DNA of 32,095 nucleotides, from assembly GCA_029252505.1 (NCBI GenBank), contig JAQXBH010000152.1, positions 1 through 32,095 of the forward strand, in the 5' to 3' direction. This DNA comes from Opitutales bacterium. GTDB lineage: Bacteria > Verrucomicrobiota > Verrucomicrobiia > Opitutales > Seribacteraceae. Below are positions 21,478-30,596 of the stretch, piece by piece; position 1 is the stretch's first letter; every line of letters starts with the position of its first letter. The position numbers and the translations under genes were made by a program. The notes below the pieces were generated by a model. The model did no database searches, had not been told where the DNA came from, and was given only the letters and a program-made list of their open reading frames with translations.

Positions 21478-22977
21478 TTGAACAAATTCTTTTTCAGCAA
21501 GATTCTGTTTTATATGAGATGGGTACTACTAATTTCATCAACTCTTTTTTTTATATCTGCTTTCGGAAATAAAAAGCGGTTTAATGTAGTTTTTATCATC
21601 TCGGATGATCTGACTTATACCGCCCTATCCTGTTACGGAAACAAGGTTTTCCAAACTCCCCATATCGATAAACTTGCAAAGGAAGGTGTTCGCTTCACGC
21701 AAGCTTTTTGCCAAGCGACTTATTGTGGACCATCACGAGCTTCTTTCATGTCGGGGTACTACCCCCATGCAACAGGAGTCCTAGGATACAAAAATCCTCG
21801 TGCGAAAATTGGAAAACGAGCAACTTGGCCCCAATACTTTCGGAACCATGGTTACCATGCGGCTCGTGTAAGCAAAGTTTATCACATGGGTGTGCCAGGA
21901 GGCATTGAGAGGGGAGACGACGGAGCTGATGATGCTCTCTCATGGGATGAAAAGTATAATAGTAAAGGCCTAGAGTGGCGTGCACCTGGTAATGGAGAGA
22001 CCTTGCAAAAAAATCCAGACGGCCAAAGACCTGTTGTGGGAGGTAATAATTTTGTGGTGGTAGAAGCGGATGGGGATGACCTAGTTCATGCAGACGGTAA
22101 AACTGCAAGCAAGGCCGTCCAATTAATAAAAAAATATGAAAATATGGAAAAACCTTTTTGGATGGGGGTTGGATTCGTGCGACCTCATGTTCCCTTTGTA
22201 GCTCCAAGAAAATATTATAGGCCATTCAAACCATACTCCAAAATGGTACTCCCAGAAAAGTTTCCCGGCAACTGGGATGACATACCGCAAGCTGGAATCA
22301 ATTATTGTACCAGTGAAAATATGCAGATGGATATACGGAAGCAAAAAAAGGCGGTTGGTGGATACTATGCTTCAGTCGCTTATCTCGATGCTCAAGTGGG
22401 CAAGGTCATGAGTGCACTGGAGAAATCCGGCAAGCGGGACGAAACCATTGTGATTTTCACCAGCGACCATGGCTTTCATCTCGGAGAGCATGATTTCTGG
22501 GCAAAAGTCAGCTTGCGAGATGAATCAGCCAAGGTTCCTTTAATTATTTCCATGCCCGGCAAAAAGCCAGCTATCTGTGATTCATTTGTTGAACTCCTTG
22601 ACCTCTACCCCACCCTTGCAAATTTGTGTGCGCTACCAAAGCAAAGCCGTCTACAGGGTAAAGATATTTCAAAAATGTTGGATAATCCCTCTCACGATGT
22701 GAGAAAAGAGGCATTCTCTGTTGCCCCAATGAGAACGGGATTTTTACTTAGAAATAAACAATGGTCTTTTATTCAATATGGTGAAAATTTACCGCATCAA
22801 TTGAATGGTGGCTTTGAACATGGTAGGAATGGAATCGAACTTTTCGACATGAAGCAAGATCCACAACAATTTATTAATCTCGCCGACAGCCCAAAACACG
22901 AGCCTACCGTCCAAGCCTTCCGAAAAAAACTAAAAGACAAATTGATCGCTATCCGCAAGAATGACTTGATAAACTAA
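21478..22977 (+). CDS. Sulfatase (iduronate-2-sulfatase-like), active-site motif intact
   Basis: 499-aa ORF from a TTG start (in-frame ATG at 21514 gives MRWVLLISSTLFFISAFG). 'NVVFIISDDLT', FGly motif 'CGPSRASFMSGYYPH', 'SKVYHMG', 'TSDHGFHLGEHDFWAKVSLRDESAKVPLIISMPG'. Confidence 0.93.
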   Translation: MNKFFFSKILFYMRWVLLISSTLFFISAFGNKKRFNVVFIISDDLTYTALSCYGNKVFQTPHIDKLAKEGVRFTQAFCQATYCGPSRASFMSGYYPHATGVLGYKNPRAKIGKRATWPQYFRNHGYHAARVSKVYHMGVPGGIERGDDGADDALSWDEKYNSKGLEWRAPGNGETLQKNPDGQRPVVGGNNFVVVEADGDDLVHADGKTASKAVQLIKKYENMEKPFWMGVGFVRPHVPFVAPRKYYRPFKPYSKMVLPEKFPGNWDDIPQAGINYCTSENMQMDIRKQKKAVGGYYASVAYLDAQVGKVMSALEKSGKRDETIVIFTSDHGFHLGEHDFWAKVSLRDESAKVPLIISMPGKKPAICDSFVELLDLYPTLANLCALPKQSRLQGKDISKMLDNPSHDVRKEAFSVAPMRTGFLLRNKQWSFIQYGENLPHQLNGGFEHGRNGIELFDMKQDPQQFINLADSPKHEPTVQAFRKKLKDKLIAIRKNDLIN

Positions 22978-23961: not shown

Positions 23962-25806
23962 TTATTCTACAGTAACAGATTTTGCCAAGTTACGGGGTTT
24001 ATCAACATCCAATCCCCGTAATCGGGCGAAATGATAGGCAAATAATTGAAGTGGTAAGTTTGCTAGAATCGGTCGAATTACCTCATGGGCTTCAGGAATA
24101 CGGAAAATATCATCGGCCGCTTCCGGAGGAATTTCCACAGATTCAGGTGCGATCGCTAGTACTGGACCTTTTCTCGCCTTTACCTCCTGCATATTCGCGA
24201 TAGTCTTAGCTGAGAGTTCTGTCCCTTCCACAATAAAAACGGATGGACACTCTGGGTTAATAAGGGCGATAGGCCCATGTTTCAATTCAGCAGCCGGGTA
24301 ACCCTCTGCATGGGCATAGGATATCTCTTTCAACTTGAGAGCACCTTCAAGTGCAACCGGATAAAGACTTTGACGACCAAGAAAGAGTAAATGTTCTGCC
24401 TTGGAATACTTAACCGCAAGTTCTTTGATTTGATCGCCCTTTTGCAAAACTTCTTCGACTAATTCGGGCAACTTATTTAGTCCATCTACAATGGCTTGTC
24501 CATCTGTTGGAGAAAGGTCACGCATTCGACCCAGAGCAAGTCCAAGCATTGCACAAAGGCAAGCCTGCGAAGAAAATGCTTTGGTGGATGCAACTCCAAT
24601 TTCGGGACCAACACGTTGATAAACTCCGCCATCAGTCTCTCGTGCAAGGGATGATCCTACAACATTGGTAATCCCCAATGTGAGGAGTCCTTTTGTTTTT
24701 GCCTCCCGTACGGCTTCAAGAGTGTCCAAAGTCTCCCCGGATTGGCTCACTGCAATCACAAGAGAATTTCCCGCCTTTGGAGAATTTCGGTAACGAAATT
24801 CGGAAGCATGTTCGACTTCAACCGGTACACGGGCTAACCTTTCAATTAAATACTCACCTACCATACATGCATGCCGAGCGGTTCCACAAGCAACGAAAAT
24901 AATACGGTCTAAGTTTCGCAACTCATCTTCGTGCCCTTCCAATCCCCCTAACTTAGCAGTTGTTCCATCGTCTCCGAATCGCCCGCGGAGCGTATTTTCT
25001 AAGGCCTTGGGTTGCTCGTAAATTTCTTTCTCCATGTAGGAGTCATAATCGCCAAGCTCGACTTCTTCAGAGATCTGCTCAACAGGATGCGCAATTGCTT
25101 GGGCTTCTTGTCCCTCCATCGTTGAAATCCTAAAATCATTACCTTTAAGAATGGCTAATTCGCCATCGTTCAAGAAAACAGCTTCTTTCGCACGACCCAC
25201 AAATGCTGAGGCGTCACTGGCAATAAAATTAGCATCTTCTCCCAATCCTACAACGAGGGGCGAGCCCCGCCTCGCACCAATCATAGTATCCGGATAATCC
25301 AAACATAACACAGCAATACCGTACGCACCTCGGCATTGAGGAAGTGCAGAACGAATTGCATCGATAAACCTGTCTTCCCCTGAAGGTAATTCTGAATAAT
25401 GATAGGCAATAAGATTACATAAAACCTCAGAATCAGTTTCTGATGTAAAATTGATACCTTTGCCGGTAAGAAATTTCTTAAGAGTTCCAAAGTTTTCGAT
25501 CACTCCGTTATGAACCATCACAAATTTTCCGTCTTGGCTTACATGTGGATGAGTATTTGCAACAGTAACCGCACCGTGAGTCGCCCAACGGGTATGAGCA
25601 ATACCGAGAGAGGAGGAAGAACCCTTTTCATGAACCGATTCCGCTAAATTCTTCACTCTTCCAGTTTCACGAGCAATCGAAAATTCTTTTCCTTCGTGAA
25701 ATGCAACCCCTGCTGAATCATATCCCCGATACTCAAGTCTTTTAAGACCATCTATCAGTGATTCTTGGGCAGCACCCTTACCTATATATCCAATAATACC
25801 ACACAT
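23962..25806 (-). CDS. glmS: Glutamine--fructose-6-phosphate aminotransferase (isomerizing)
   Basis: 614-aa ORF; 'MCGIIGYIGKGAAQESLIDGLKRLEYRGYDSAGVA', 'HTRWATHGAVTVANTHPH', two SIS domains, C-terminal 'DVDKPRNLAKSVTVE'. Confidence 0.99.
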   Translation of the reverse strand: MCGIIGYIGKGAAQESLIDGLKRLEYRGYDSAGVAFHEGKEFSIARETGRVKNLAESVHEKGSSSSLGIAHTRWATHGAVTVANTHPHVSQDGKFVMVHNGVIENFGTLKKFLTGKGINFTSETDSEVLCNLIAYHYSELPSGEDRFIDAIRSALPQCRGAYGIAVLCLDYPDTMIGARRGSPLVVGLGEDANFIASDASAFVGRAKEAVFLNDGELAILKGNDFRISTMEGQEAQAIAHPVEQISEEVELGDYDSYMEKEIYEQPKALENTLRGRFGDDGTTAKLGGLEGHEDELRNLDRIIFVACGTARHACMVGEYLIERLARVPVEVEHASEFRYRNSPKAGNSLVIAVSQSGETLDTLEAVREAKTKGLLTLGITNVVGSSLARETDGGVYQRVGPEIGVASTKAFSSQACLCAMLGLALGRMRDLSPTDGQAIVDGLNKLPELVEEVLQKGDQIKELAVKYSKAEHLLFLGRQSLYPVALEGALKLKEISYAHAEGYPAAELKHGPIALINPECPSVFIVEGTELSAKTIANMQEVKARKGPVLAIAPESVEIPPEAADDIFRIPEAHEVIRPILANLPLQLFAYHFARLRGLDVDKPRNLAKSVTVE

Positions 25807-25976: not shown

Positions 25977-27587
25977 GTGAAAACTATTTGGTTACCATTA
26001 TTTATTTTAAAAATCCTTTGGTTAAGTTTCTATCACATTAGCACCGGGAGCGAAAAACCGAACTTTGTTGTTATTATTTCAGAAAGTCATTCAACAAGTG
26101 CAGTGGGAGCTTATAAAGGATATTTATCTGATATAAATCCCACACCAAACTTAGATTTAATTTCACAAAAAGGGAGCATATTTACCAATGCCTTTTGTAC
26201 AAATGCGACCTCTGGACCTAGCACGGCTTCAATTTTAACCGGAAAATATTCTCATCTAAACGGGTTCATTCATAATGGTTGTAAATTCAACACATCGCAG
26301 AACTATCTGCCCAAAATTCTAAAAGAATTAGGCTATCAAACCGCACTTTTTGGTAGATGGGATTTAGGTGTAAAACCAAAATATTTCGATAATTGGAGCA
26401 TATTGACAGATCCGGCAGAAAAATATAATCCCGAATTTTTAGACTCAAAGAGTAAAAAAAGAATTGAAGGACATTCAACCGATATTATTTCAGATTTGGC
26501 TCTAGATTGGTTACATAAAAAGAAAAATGTAAAACCCTTCTTCCTACTGATTCAATTTAATGCTACCAACAAACCTTGGATGCCTGCTATTCGGCATTTA
26601 AGACTTTATGATGATAAACTCTTACCAGAACCGATTAATTTAATTGATGAACATATAGGAAAAGCAAGCCCCGCTCGCTATCAATCAATGGAAATTAAAA
26701 AAGACCTGGATCTTGCAAATGATCTTTTTTTCCCATCCGAGCAATCAGATAGAAATCGATCCAAGAAAATGGATAATTTAAACGGGCAAAAGAATTTGGA
26801 CCTTATGACCCCCGAGCAACACTCGGCATGGAAGCTCTCATGGAGGCCCAAGAATGAAGCATTCCTAAGAGAAAACCACTCCAATGAGAATATTTTACAT
26901 TGGAAGTTTCAAAGATTTACTAAAAATTACCTTCGATGTATCAGTGGCATTGATGAGAATGTTAAAAGAATCAATGAACTATTAACTGCAACCAATAAAA
27001 CCGATTCCTTCCTTATTTATACATCAAATCATGGTCGTTTTCTTGGTGAACATGGATGGTTTGGTTCTAAGTGGATTTATGAAGAATCAAGTAAAGTCCC
27101 CCTTATTATAAGGATGCCCTTCGGCTTATCTTCCACCAATACAGTCTCTTCGCTTGTACAAAATATCGACCTTGCCCAAACAATCCTCGACTATGCTGGG
27201 TTAAAAGAAGTCAAGGAGATGCAGGGGGAATCAGTGAGTCAACTATTAGATAATGAAGATTCAAATAATACTTGGAGGAACTCGATTTATTTTCATCACA
27301 ATGAATTCCCAGGCGATCAAATGATTGCGAAACATTATGGCATTCGAACCCTTAGGCATAAACTAATTCATTTTTATCAATTCGATGAATGGGAGTTTTA
27401 TGATTTAGAAAATGACCCCAATGAATCGAAAAACCTCTACGGTAAAGAAAACTTCAGTTCTGAATTAGAAAAAATGAAACAATTATTAGTTCGTAATCGG
27501 ACAAAATATTTAGACGATTCCGACATTTCAATTATGCCGGAAGAATGGAGAAAAATTTACAGAGGACCTGAAGCTAGAAAGGAATAA
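25977..27587 (+). CDS. Sulfatase-fold protein with substituted catalytic residues (predicted pseudo-sulfatase)
   Basis: 536-aa ORF, GTG start, signal peptide; collinear with the 27827-29425 sulfatase throughout ('PTPNLDLISQKGSIFTNAFCTN', 'RFTKNYLRCISGIDENVKRI', 'WIYEESSKVPLIIRMP', 'EFPGDQMIAKHYGIRTLRHKLIHFYQFDEWEFYDLENDPNESKNLYGK') but with SGPST instead of CxPxR and other ligand substitutions. Confidence 0.92.
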   Translation: MKTIWLPLFILKILWLSFYHISTGSEKPNFVVIISESHSTSAVGAYKGYLSDINPTPNLDLISQKGSIFTNAFCTNATSGPSTASILTGKYSHLNGFIHNGCKFNTSQNYLPKILKELGYQTALFGRWDLGVKPKYFDNWSILTDPAEKYNPEFLDSKSKKRIEGHSTDIISDLALDWLHKKKNVKPFFLLIQFNATNKPWMPAIRHLRLYDDKLLPEPINLIDEHIGKASPARYQSMEIKKDLDLANDLFFPSEQSDRNRSKKMDNLNGQKNLDLMTPEQHSAWKLSWRPKNEAFLRENHSNENILHWKFQRFTKNYLRCISGIDENVKRINELLTATNKTDSFLIYTSNHGRFLGEHGWFGSKWIYEESSKVPLIIRMPFGLSSTNTVSSLVQNIDLAQTILDYAGLKEVKEMQGESVSQLLDNEDSNNTWRNSIYFHHNEFPGDQMIAKHYGIRTLRHKLIHFYQFDEWEFYDLENDPNESKNLYGKENFSSELEKMKQLLVRNRTKYLDDSDISIMPEEWRKIYRGPEARKE

Positions 27588-27653: not shown

Positions 27654-27682
27654 TTGTCGGACATTAAAATTCCCTTATCTTT
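27654..27682 (+). promoter_or_regulatory. Candidate sigma70-like promoter (-35 TTGTCG, 17-nt spacer, -10 TATCTT)
   Basis: TTGTCG at 27654-27659 and TATCTT at 27677-27682 with exactly 17 nt between them, in an otherwise noncoding, AT-rich intergenic region. Confidence 0.4.
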
Positions 27683-27705
27683 GATAACTTAAGGAATGCA
27701 TATCC

Positions 27706-27757
27706 TGAAAGGTGTCGTTTGGGAGGACGGCACCTTTCATCTTTTATTTATCTTTTG
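27706..27757 (+). terminator. Hairpin followed by T-rich tract (intrinsic terminator-like)
   Basis: TGAAAGGTGTCGT (27706-27718) / ACGGCACCTTTCA (27727-27739): 13-bp stem with one U.G wobble and loop TTGGGAGG, followed by TCTTTTATTTATCTTTT. Confidence 0.65.
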
Positions 27758-27826: not shown

Positions 27827-29425
27827 ATGAACTATCTTTTCAAAATAATATCTTTCCTTTTCTCAGTCTTCTTTAACTTGATTCAAGCGAAGGAAGGAAG
27901 GCCCAACATTGTATTTATCTTCTCTGATGACCATGCCCCCCATGCAATCGGAGCTTATAATGGATGGTTGAAATCAGTGAATCCAACACCGGTAATTGAC
28001 AAACTTGCAAGCGATGGAATGCTTTTTGTAAACAGCTTTTGCACAAATTCAATTTGCGGCCCTAGTCGTGCGGTGATTCAAACGGGAAAGCACAGCCATA
28101 AAAATGGTTTCATGAATAACGGGAATACTTTTGATTGGAACCAACAAACTTTTCCGAAGCTGCTTCAAAAGGCAGGATATCAGACCGCAATTTATGGAAA
28201 AAGCCACTTGAAGGGAAAACCATTAGGATATGATGACTGGGCGGTTCTACCTGGTCAGGGTTTGTATTATAATCCGGACATGATTTTTCCTGATGGAAAA
28301 AAACGCATAGACGGGTATTGCACAGATGTGGTAACGGACTTGGCGGTAGAATGGCTCAATCAAAAAAGATCCGAAGAAAAGCCATTTATGCTTATGGTTC
28401 AACATAAGGCTCCGCATCGGAATTGGATGCCCGCACTTAGACATTTGTCTCTTTATAACGATATTGAAATTCCTGAACCTCCCACCCTTTTCGATGAGTG
28501 GAAAGATAATGCACCAGGGGCAAGACTACAGGAACTGGAAATTAACCGGCATATGGATTTAAATTACGATCTATTTGTTGATTTGACTCCTGAATTCAAT
28601 CAACCTCCCTCCCAATTAAGACAAGACCGATCAGCTTGGCACAACATGAAAAGAATGACCTCGGTACAACTAAAGGCGTGGCAAGCTCATTATGCACCGA
28701 GGGATTCTGCATTTCACAAGGCCAAACTTTCTGGTAAAGATCTAGTCCGCTGGAAGTTCCAAAGATATGCAAAAAACTATCTTCGGTGCGTTAAGGGGGT
28801 CGATGAAAGCGTGGATCGTTTACAAAAGGAACTTGCCAAACTTGGGCTTGATAAAAACACCATCGTTATCTACTCCTCAGACCAAGGATTCTACATCGGT
28901 GATCATGGGTGGTACGATAAAAGATGGATGTACGAAGAATCATTAAAAATGCCTCTGATTATTAAATGGCCAGGAGTTATTAAGCCGAACAGTCGTGAGA
29001 CTGAGCTGGTTCAAAACTTGGATTATGCACAAACATTTCTGGAAATCGCCGGTGCCACCCAGCCTAAGGATATGCAGGGTCTTTCATTAGTGCCATTGAT
29101 GAAAGGAGAAAAACCTGAAAAGTGGAGAAGCGAAATATACTATCATTATTACGAATATCCAAGTGTCCACATGGTTCCACGCCACTATGGCATACGCACC
29201 AAAAGACACAAACTCATGCACTTCTACCAGTTCAAAAATGAATGGGAAATGTACGATCTAAATAAAGATCCCGATGAACTGTCTAATCTCTATGGTAAAA
29301 AAGAGACAATACAGTTACAAAATAGGCTCAAAAAAAGGCTCAAAAATTTACAAAAGACTTACGAAGATGACAGTGATATGTCAATTCGTGAAGACTATAT
29401 CGAAATGTTCAGAAAGAAATCCTAA
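27827..29425 (+). CDS. Sulfatase, active-site motif intact
   Basis: 532-aa ORF; 'PNIVFIFSDDHAPHAIGAYNG', 'CGPSRAVIQTGKHSH', 'YGKSHLKGKP', 'APHRNWMPA', 'YSSDQGFYIGDHGWYDKRWMYEESLKMPLIIKWPG'. Confidence 0.97.
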   Translation: MNYLFKIISFLFSVFFNLIQAKEGRPNIVFIFSDDHAPHAIGAYNGWLKSVNPTPVIDKLASDGMLFVNSFCTNSICGPSRAVIQTGKHSHKNGFMNNGNTFDWNQQTFPKLLQKAGYQTAIYGKSHLKGKPLGYDDWAVLPGQGLYYNPDMIFPDGKKRIDGYCTDVVTDLAVEWLNQKRSEEKPFMLMVQHKAPHRNWMPALRHLSLYNDIEIPEPPTLFDEWKDNAPGARLQELEINRHMDLNYDLFVDLTPEFNQPPSQLRQDRSAWHNMKRMTSVQLKAWQAHYAPRDSAFHKAKLSGKDLVRWKFQRYAKNYLRCVKGVDESVDRLQKELAKLGLDKNTIVIYSSDQGFYIGDHGWYDKRWMYEESLKMPLIIKWPGVIKPNSRETELVQNLDYAQTFLEIAGATQPKDMQGLSLVPLMKGEKPEKWRSEIYYHYYEYPSVHMVPRHYGIRTKRHKLMHFYQFKNEWEMYDLNKDPDELSNLYGKKETIQLQNRLKKRLKNLQKTYEDDSDMSIREDYIEMFRKKS

Positions 29426-29426
29426 A

Positions 29427-30470
29427 TTAAATTTTTAGCTGCTTTCCATCCGATATTGAGTCGGTAATACTAGGATGGATCCAATCCCTCAATGACCATT
29501 TCTTGGCAAGTACTCGATAACGATTTGGCTTTCTTTTCAGACTCGGTTCGTAGTCAGTGTAAAAGGCGGTAAGAAGATTTCCTTTTTTATCCAATAAAAC
29601 TGTCGATGGGTAACCAATGTCCTTGGCTTCAGATCCAAATTGGTGAATTACCCAAGGCGGCCTCCAAGTTAATCCGCCGTCAATACTTAATCTTGCACCG
29701 ATGCCCATAAGACCACGATTACGAATTCCGTAAGTCAGCAACAAGCATTTATCAGAAAGGGCGGTCAAATCTGCAGGGTGTTGCATGGGCAGGGTAAGCG
29801 GAAATTTTTCTTTCCACCTTTTTCTAGTCTTAGTGAACTCGCAAAGCTTTACATGATGATCAATATGAGTTCGCGTTGCGGCCAACAACCGACCTCCTCC
29901 CAAATTACATAATGTTGCTTCATTCGAATCATCTGAGCCAAATTTTGATCTTCGTGTCCAAGTTTTTCCATCATCATCAGATGACACCATCCAGGTTTCA
30001 CTTGGATTTCCATGCCCTTGGGAACGATAGCATGAATAGGCTAATTCATTTGAATCGAGCTGAATAATTCGCCCAAATGGAATCGTTGATTCTATTCCTT
30101 TAGGTACGACGGGATAATCTTCAGATTTCCAAGACTTTCCACGATCATTTGACCTTGATAGCCAATGACCAGAGAATCCGACAAATTTTTTATCTTTAAC
30201 AAAAAATCCGCTGCTAAAGCAAAGAATATCCCCATTATGGGCAAGCCCAACTGCCAAATGCATCCGGTTCCCACCTTTTGGCCTTTTCGCCACAACAGAA
30301 AGTTTTTTCCAGTTCTGACCCTTGCGGTCACTGATAGAGCAAACCAAGTCCCCCTCCATTAGTCCATGACTGGGTGCATTAAAATAAGTGCACAGGATCT
30401 GACCGTTCTTTAGCTTAGTAAGGTTTGGCCACCCACATGCATTCGTTACAACAACGGATATTTGGTTCAT
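29427..30470 (-). CDS. Sialidase/neuraminidase-fold (BNR/Asp-box repeat) protein, no evident signal peptide
   Basis: ORF extends to 30494 (MVAILRCIMNQ...); in-frame ATG at 30470. Asp-box motifs 'SRSNDRGKSW', 'SSDDDGKTW', 'SIDGGLTW'. Confidence 0.82.
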   Translation of the reverse strand: MNQISVVVTNACGWPNLTKLKNGQILCTYFNAPSHGLMEGDLVCSISDRKGQNWKKLSVVAKRPKGGNRMHLAVGLAHNGDILCFSSGFFVKDKKFVGFSGHWLSRSNDRGKSWKSEDYPVVPKGIESTIPFGRIIQLDSNELAYSCYRSQGHGNPSETWMVSSDDDGKTWTRRSKFGSDDSNEATLCNLGGGRLLAATRTHIDHHVKLCEFTKTRKRWKEKFPLTLPMQHPADLTALSDKCLLLTYGIRNRGLMGIGARLSIDGGLTWRPPWVIHQFGSEAKDIGYPSTVLLDKKGNLLTAFYTDYEPSLKRKPNRYRVLAKKWSLRDWIHPSITDSISDGKQLKI

Positions 30471-30596
30471 AATACATCTTAAGATAGCGACCATTCACCG
30501 AGTCAATTCATAATACTTGCTAACCTATCTAAATATTTTTTGAAAACATACTAATTCCATATTTGACAGTAATACCATTTCCGGAACTCTAAGAGC

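Follow-up and report, generated by a model that had tools for sequence, protein, structure and literature searches.

What does a sulfatase homolog do once its catalytic site is gone? The question is raised by a locus in the window, i.e., the whole stretch of 32,095 nucleotides of an Opitutales bacterium (contig JAQXBH010000152.1) that was analysed. An S1 sulfatase sequence is taken to indicate a capacity for desulfation, and marine Verrucomicrobia have many such genes. In the window, an inactive S1_11-type sulfatase homolog (25977-27587, here called PSE) lies next to an intact S1_11 sulfatase (27827-29425, here called INT). The sequences of PSE and its orthologs indicate that PSE is not a decaying gene but codes for a real protein, whose function is probably not enzymatic. 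The features of the locus are:

23962..25806, minus strand: presumably glmS, a name based on its sequence and on general knowledge; by synteny it is regularly found upstream of PSE in most genomes, with one or two genes intervening in some
25977..27587, plus strand: PSE, inactive S1_11-type sulfatase homolog (Pfam, solved relatives, substitutions)
27691..27738, plus strand: RNA element just downstream of PSE, in which the invariant box AAGGAATGCATATCCT is followed by a 14-bp hairpin at 27707-27738 (conservation, covariation)
27827..29425, plus strand: INT, intact S1_11 sulfatase with the complete catalytic set (Pfam, alignment)
29427..30494, minus strand: BNR/sialidase-like protein, regularly located downstream wherever the contig extends that far (PF13088, synteny)

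The protein-coding genes usually follow each other in the order glmS (minus), PSE (plus), INT (plus) and BNR (minus).

Reading frame, domains and substituted residues

Translation of PSE from a GTG start yields 536 amino acids followed by a stop codon; no internal stop was observed, which confirms the intact frame of 536 codons given in the original prediction. The N-terminus is hydrophobic and, judged by eye, is a predicted Sec signal or anchor. PSE matches the Pfam families PF00884 (4.5e-40) and PF16347 (4e-50), both of which are also present in INT, and the two proteins are 43% identical in pairwise alignment. Comparison with solved structures identified the S1_11 sulfatases 5g2v (BT4656) and 7p24 (BT3177) as the closest solved relatives, with the top score for 9s03. 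Alignment with INT, and for the last entry with the whole inactive clade, revealed the following replacements in PSE:

26082..26087, plus strand: metal-binding Asp-Asp (INT D34/D35) replaced by E36-S37
26211..26225, plus strand: formylglycine motif CGPSR replaced by SGPST, residues 79-83 (INT C77 is S79, INT R81 is T83)
26355..26363, plus strand: catalytic K-x-H (INT K125/H127) replaced by R127-W128-D129
26568..26570, plus strand: catalytic His of the APH motif (INT H197) replaced by N198
27027..27032, plus strand: metal-binding D-Q (INT D352, Q353) replaced by N351-H352
27063..27071, plus strand: D-K-R replaced by G363-S364-K365, with Gly in 26 of 27 inactive sequences; INT catalytic K365 is S364 (codon 27066-27068)

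Each of the substitutions listed in the original prediction was found in this alignment at the coordinates given there, and its statement that all catalytic and metal positions are substituted holds for ten positions: none of them varies among 60 active relatives (100% invariance), and each is changed in PSE. Together with the missing site in all 27 full-length orthologs, this exceeds what chance would produce. Where active enzymes carry the formylglycine signature C/S-x-P/A-x-R, PSE reads SGPST, and the Arg is absent from all 27 members of the clade. The calcium ligands (Asp, Asp, Asp, Asn/Gln) are represented by E36, S37, N351 and H352, with variation within the clade, and the catalytic Lys/His set by R127, D129, N198 and S364; W128 is invariant across the inactive clade. 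The Asp and Arg of the D-K-R motif are what we take to be the probable sugar-recognition pair. D36E and K127R are conservative changes in the copy of the window, and the His in place of Q353 (H352) is shared with other sulfatases (SDHG, e.g., the ORF at 21478-22977). Ser at the nucleophile position also occurs in solved S1_11 chains (SGPSR), so that the change from Cys to Ser alone would not be inactivating. It is the loss of the Arg, both His, the Lys and the metal-binding Asp that abolishes the site.

The genome that contains the window has 86 matches to PF00884, and 68 sulfatase ORFs, a few of them fragments, were read. The signature pattern fits 53 of the 68, most of the others having Cys and Arg at a different spacing or being fragments. 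The signature Arg is visibly missing in only two, PSE and L198 (C95:2000-4300), which has CRPSL for CxPxR, i.e., Leu in place of Arg.

Predicted structure

The AlphaFold2 model of PSE, built from 48 sequences that are mostly active relatives, has a pLDDT of 88.8 and a pTM of 0.90; its best Foldseek matches are 5g2v (BT4656; TMt 0.95, rmsd 2.2) and 7p24. A model from six sequences of the inactive clade alone reached a pLDDT of just 37.5, and the confident fold therefore rests on the mixed alignment. The preserved fold of the original prediction is very likely by homology, including the SGSH_C subdomain, with the limit that the model leans on active relatives.

The inactive clade

Orthologs were collected by searches in the genus and the family and by reading of the loci. 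Of the 27 full-length sequences in the set, 18 come from genomes of the genus of the window (g1) and eight from a sister genus (g2), each genome of which has one; the remaining sequence, a g2-like copy, is in bin G013. A partial copy is present in G012. Bin G013 also contains a fragmentary g1-type pair, and the presence of both a g1-type and a g2-type copy of the locus (L122, L123) suggests a mixed assembly. Genomes of the related genera g3 and g4 showed INT but no PSE. None of the 27 full-length orthologs, which come from separate assemblies, has an intact catalytic site, and the frames are open in all of them.

A tree was built from 83 sequences, of which 23 are inactive, 27 are intact and 33 are others; in it the inactive sequences form a single clade on long branches, with a support of 100/100. 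A grouping of PSE and the neighbouring INT as one clade was rejected (AU p=0.011), so that an origin of PSE by simple tandem duplication of INT is disfavoured, bearing in mind that long branches, which are in play here, bias such tests.

The 60 active relatives share 101 columns that are at least 95% invariant, 10 of them catalytic or metal-binding and 91 other. In the inactive sequences the ancestral residue is kept in 10% of the cells of the catalytic columns versus 65% in the other 91 columns (Mann-Whitney p=2e-5), a contrast that is unchanged with 23 inactive sequences. Residue loss is thus targeted at the catalytic site. The nucleophile Cys, the Arg, both His, the third Asp and the catalytic Lys are each found in 0 of 27 sequences. 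At the nucleophile position the clade has Ser (9), Ala (5), Pro (5), Thr (4), Val (2), Gln (1) and Lys (1), and the signature is replaced by SGPST, SGPSS, AGPSS, TGPST, PNYTA and others. Because these replacements differ between lineages, the clade does not share any one new catalytic centre.

Selection and clade-specific residues

NG86 estimates of dN/dS for close pairs, with pairs of saturated dS set aside, are 0.08-0.25 for PSE and mostly 0.03-0.15 for INT. Maximum likelihood omega values in three sets of sequences are 0.093, 0.059 and 0.170 for PSE and 0.035, 0.031 and 0.138 for INT, i.e., 0.06-0.17 versus 0.03-0.14. PSE is under purifying selection, far below a ratio of 1, and evolves faster than INT. 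Omega is 0.13 in a set of three PSE genes, those of G018, G025 and G004; the first two of these genomes lack INT.

The inactive clade has 64 invariant columns, 12 of which are unlike the active consensus; some of these hold minority residues of active enzymes. Two motifs specific to the clade, both of them composed as patterns after viewing the alignment, are present in 27 of 27 inactive and 0 of 60 active sequences:

26814..26870, plus strand: EQxx[AT]Wx[LM]xx[RK]xxNEAxxR, residues 280-298; among the sulfatases of the own-genome set found in PSE only
27546..27569, plus strand: C-terminal motif W524...R-x-P531, with the full pattern W[RK][RKE]x[YFQK]R[GSRA]P

The original prediction had proposed that the site was lost while the protein was kept under selection for a non-hydrolytic role. 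The orthologs, the omega values and the clade-specific invariant residues bear this out, and a sequencing error or recent decay as the source of the substitutions is rejected by orthologs, omega and synteny. With residue loss in 27 of 27 sequences, purifying selection and open frames, PSE would, as judged from these sequences, be classified as a pseudoenzyme.

The locus with and without the intact neighbour

PSE is kept at the same locus, while INT is missing from a continuous contig, in G018 and G025 (g1) and in G028, G029, G032 and G033 (g2). A search for a close INT ortholog elsewhere in these six genomes found only more distant S1_11 paralogs; all statements on the absence of INT refer to the close ortholog. 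The reading that G018 is devoid of any other S1_11 gene was dropped, since G018:C27 codes for an ordinary S1_11 protein that is 51% identical to INT, although the search, at E 1e-100, did not list it. On the glmS tree the distribution of INT calls for at least two changes, or three by parsimony; loss of INT, or in g2 its gain, are both possible. The BNR gene is absent from six g1 genomes without PSE, a weak absence given that these bins are 60-84% complete.

Between G030 and G034 (L155 and L152) the intact genes are 98% identical and the inactive genes 71%, and the intact genes of g2 group with that of the g1 genome G024 in the tree; a recent exchange of the intact gene is possible. In G025, the S1_11 paralog L295 (G025:C3:50261-51688), 55% identical to INT, contains four in-frame stops and is, unlike PSE, a truly decaying sulfatase gene.

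These distributions bear on the suggestion that PSE is a regulatory or structural heteromer partner of the adjacent INT, in the manner of dead-paralog activators such as the trypanosome AdoMetDC prozyme. PSE and INT form a tandem on one strand in most genomes, and g1 and g2 include no genome with INT at the locus and PSE demonstrably absent (G003 is cut by a contig end). However, the two genes do not constantly occur together: six genomes have PSE without INT, and g3 and g4 have INT without PSE. PSE does not depend on the adjacent intact enzyme, and the partnership with the intact paralog that had been put forward at the outset finds no support if taken as obligate. Other S1_11 proteins in the INT-less genomes, 51-56% identical to INT, could still serve as partners of PSE. 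A role of PSE in a heteromer with the adjacent INT is unlikely.

RNA element between PSE and INT

A covariance model of the RNA element matches the window at 27681-27757. The hairpin shows 100% pairing in 24 distinct sequences, with compensatory changes on both sides at three pairs, and its top, GUUUGGGAGGAC, is invariant. A TTG resembling a -35 element lies at 27654, about 35 nt upstream of the AAGGAATGCATATCCT box, and is found there in 20 of 20 sequences. In Rfam the hairpin has no match at gathering scores, and the weaker matches look like chance.

The covariance model matches 26 of 42 genomes of the family, and among 390 genomes of the phylum only the window itself. The element is restricted to this family, in one copy per genome and beside PSE wherever checked. 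It is intact in G018 and G025, which lack INT, degraded in G032 and G033, and none was seen in G028 and G029. In keeping with the upstream TTG, the element may be transcribed on its own as a short RNA; a terminator or a leader are the alternatives.

Possible roles of PSE

The reading that we prefer, with a probability of about 0.6, is that PSE is a secreted or periplasmic, non-hydrolytic protein of the S1_11 fold with a stand-alone binding or scaffold role. The catalytic site would have been lost before the split of the two genera of this Opitutales family, and PSE would then have been retained for binding or scaffolding, with a glycan or a protein as ligand, using the conserved residues specific to the clade together with parts of the old fold. 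A more detailed version is tentative and more doubtful: on a single occasion, the sulfatase fold may have given rise to a secreted protein that no longer catalyses and acts by itself as a receptor or scaffold. Its new conserved surface would comprise the NEAxxR helix together with the W-R-P tail at the C-terminus, and PSE would make up a conserved module with the family-specific small RNA and the BNR/sialidase-like gene, with no need of an active sulfatase partner.

Sulfated-glycan binding, an example given in the original prediction, may be part of such a role. A special case, in which PSE is a lectin that binds 6-sulfated sugars in the retained substrate pocket, is rather improbable. The sulfate subsite is gone. 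The D-K-R motif, the probable site of the Asp/Arg pair, reads G-S-x in almost every member of the clade, and two loops that do not vary in active enzymes, GQG and KAPH, are missing. Two points speak for such a pocket: H453, W472 and E473 do not vary among the inactive sequences, nor does much of the C-terminal subdomain, and sugar recognition in active S1_11 enzymes is by a His and an Asp/Arg pair (PMC10154612).

It is quite improbable that PSE has retained enzymatic activity through an altered chemistry at the old site, be it as a Ser-type sulfatase, a phosphatase or another hydrolase. A Ser nucleophile is a known starting point in S1_11, as in the solved SGPSR chains, Glu replaces the first metal-binding Asp in 20 of 27 inactive sequences, and Lys or Arg is frequent at the Lys position. 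There is also the example of YejM, another protein of the superfamily, for which no activity had been reported before and which was then reported to be a Mg-dependent phosphatase (PMC7576196). Against this, no nucleophile is conserved in the clade, all members lack the Arg, the two His, the catalytic Lys and the third Asp, and no constant metal constellation is left. That PSE is a decaying pseudogene, or an assembly or alignment artefact, is hardly credible, as only its faster evolution relative to INT favours this, whereas the frames are open in separately assembled genomes, omega is well under 1, the synteny is conserved and the new motifs are invariant.

Significance and comparison with known systems

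With the stand-alone binding or scaffold protein as the preferred reading, the clade of PSE illustrates that complete loss of the catalytic function of a sulfatase homolog is compatible with its conservation, so that Pfam counts overstate the number of enzymes. Natural species with and without INT are a clean system for studying what the fold of a glycan enzyme does after catalysis.

PSE resembles the S1_11 sulfatases BT4656, BT3177 and BuS1_11 in its full-length sequence, predicted fold, SGSH_C subdomain and N-terminal hydrophobic segment (36% identity to 5g2v over about 500 residues, TM 0.95 for the model). Unlike these, it is devoid of the signature Arg, the catalytic Lys/His and the DKR motif, has its metal ligands replaced, and carries the clade-specific motifs instead. 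YejM/PbgA (LapC) has a sulfatase-like superfamily fold as well, with a role that is mainly regulatory. Its domain layout presumably differs from that of PSE, which scores 19.9 bits against the family model NF038282 (NCBIfam), far below the cut-off of 825. According to PMC7576196, YejM keeps a metal site.

In the literature searched, outside of which most subscription journals lie, no conserved clade of sulfatase pseudoenzymes is described, and the only possibly inactive sulfatases are nine SulfAtlas sequences. These are putatively inactive sulfatases of Lentisphaerae and Planctomycetes, in which the positively charged residue of the signature is replaced by Ile or Leu (PMC5066984). The loss of this residue, which suggests inactivity, is shared with PSE, and L198 (CRPSL) resembles the same type; in the SulfAtlas set, however, one residue is replaced, whereas in the conserved clade of PSE all catalytic and metal positions are gone. 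The AdoMetDC prozyme is likewise an inactive homolog beside an active one in the same genome (PMC5201418), but unlike activators of the prozyme type, PSE outlives the adjacent active INT in six genomes.
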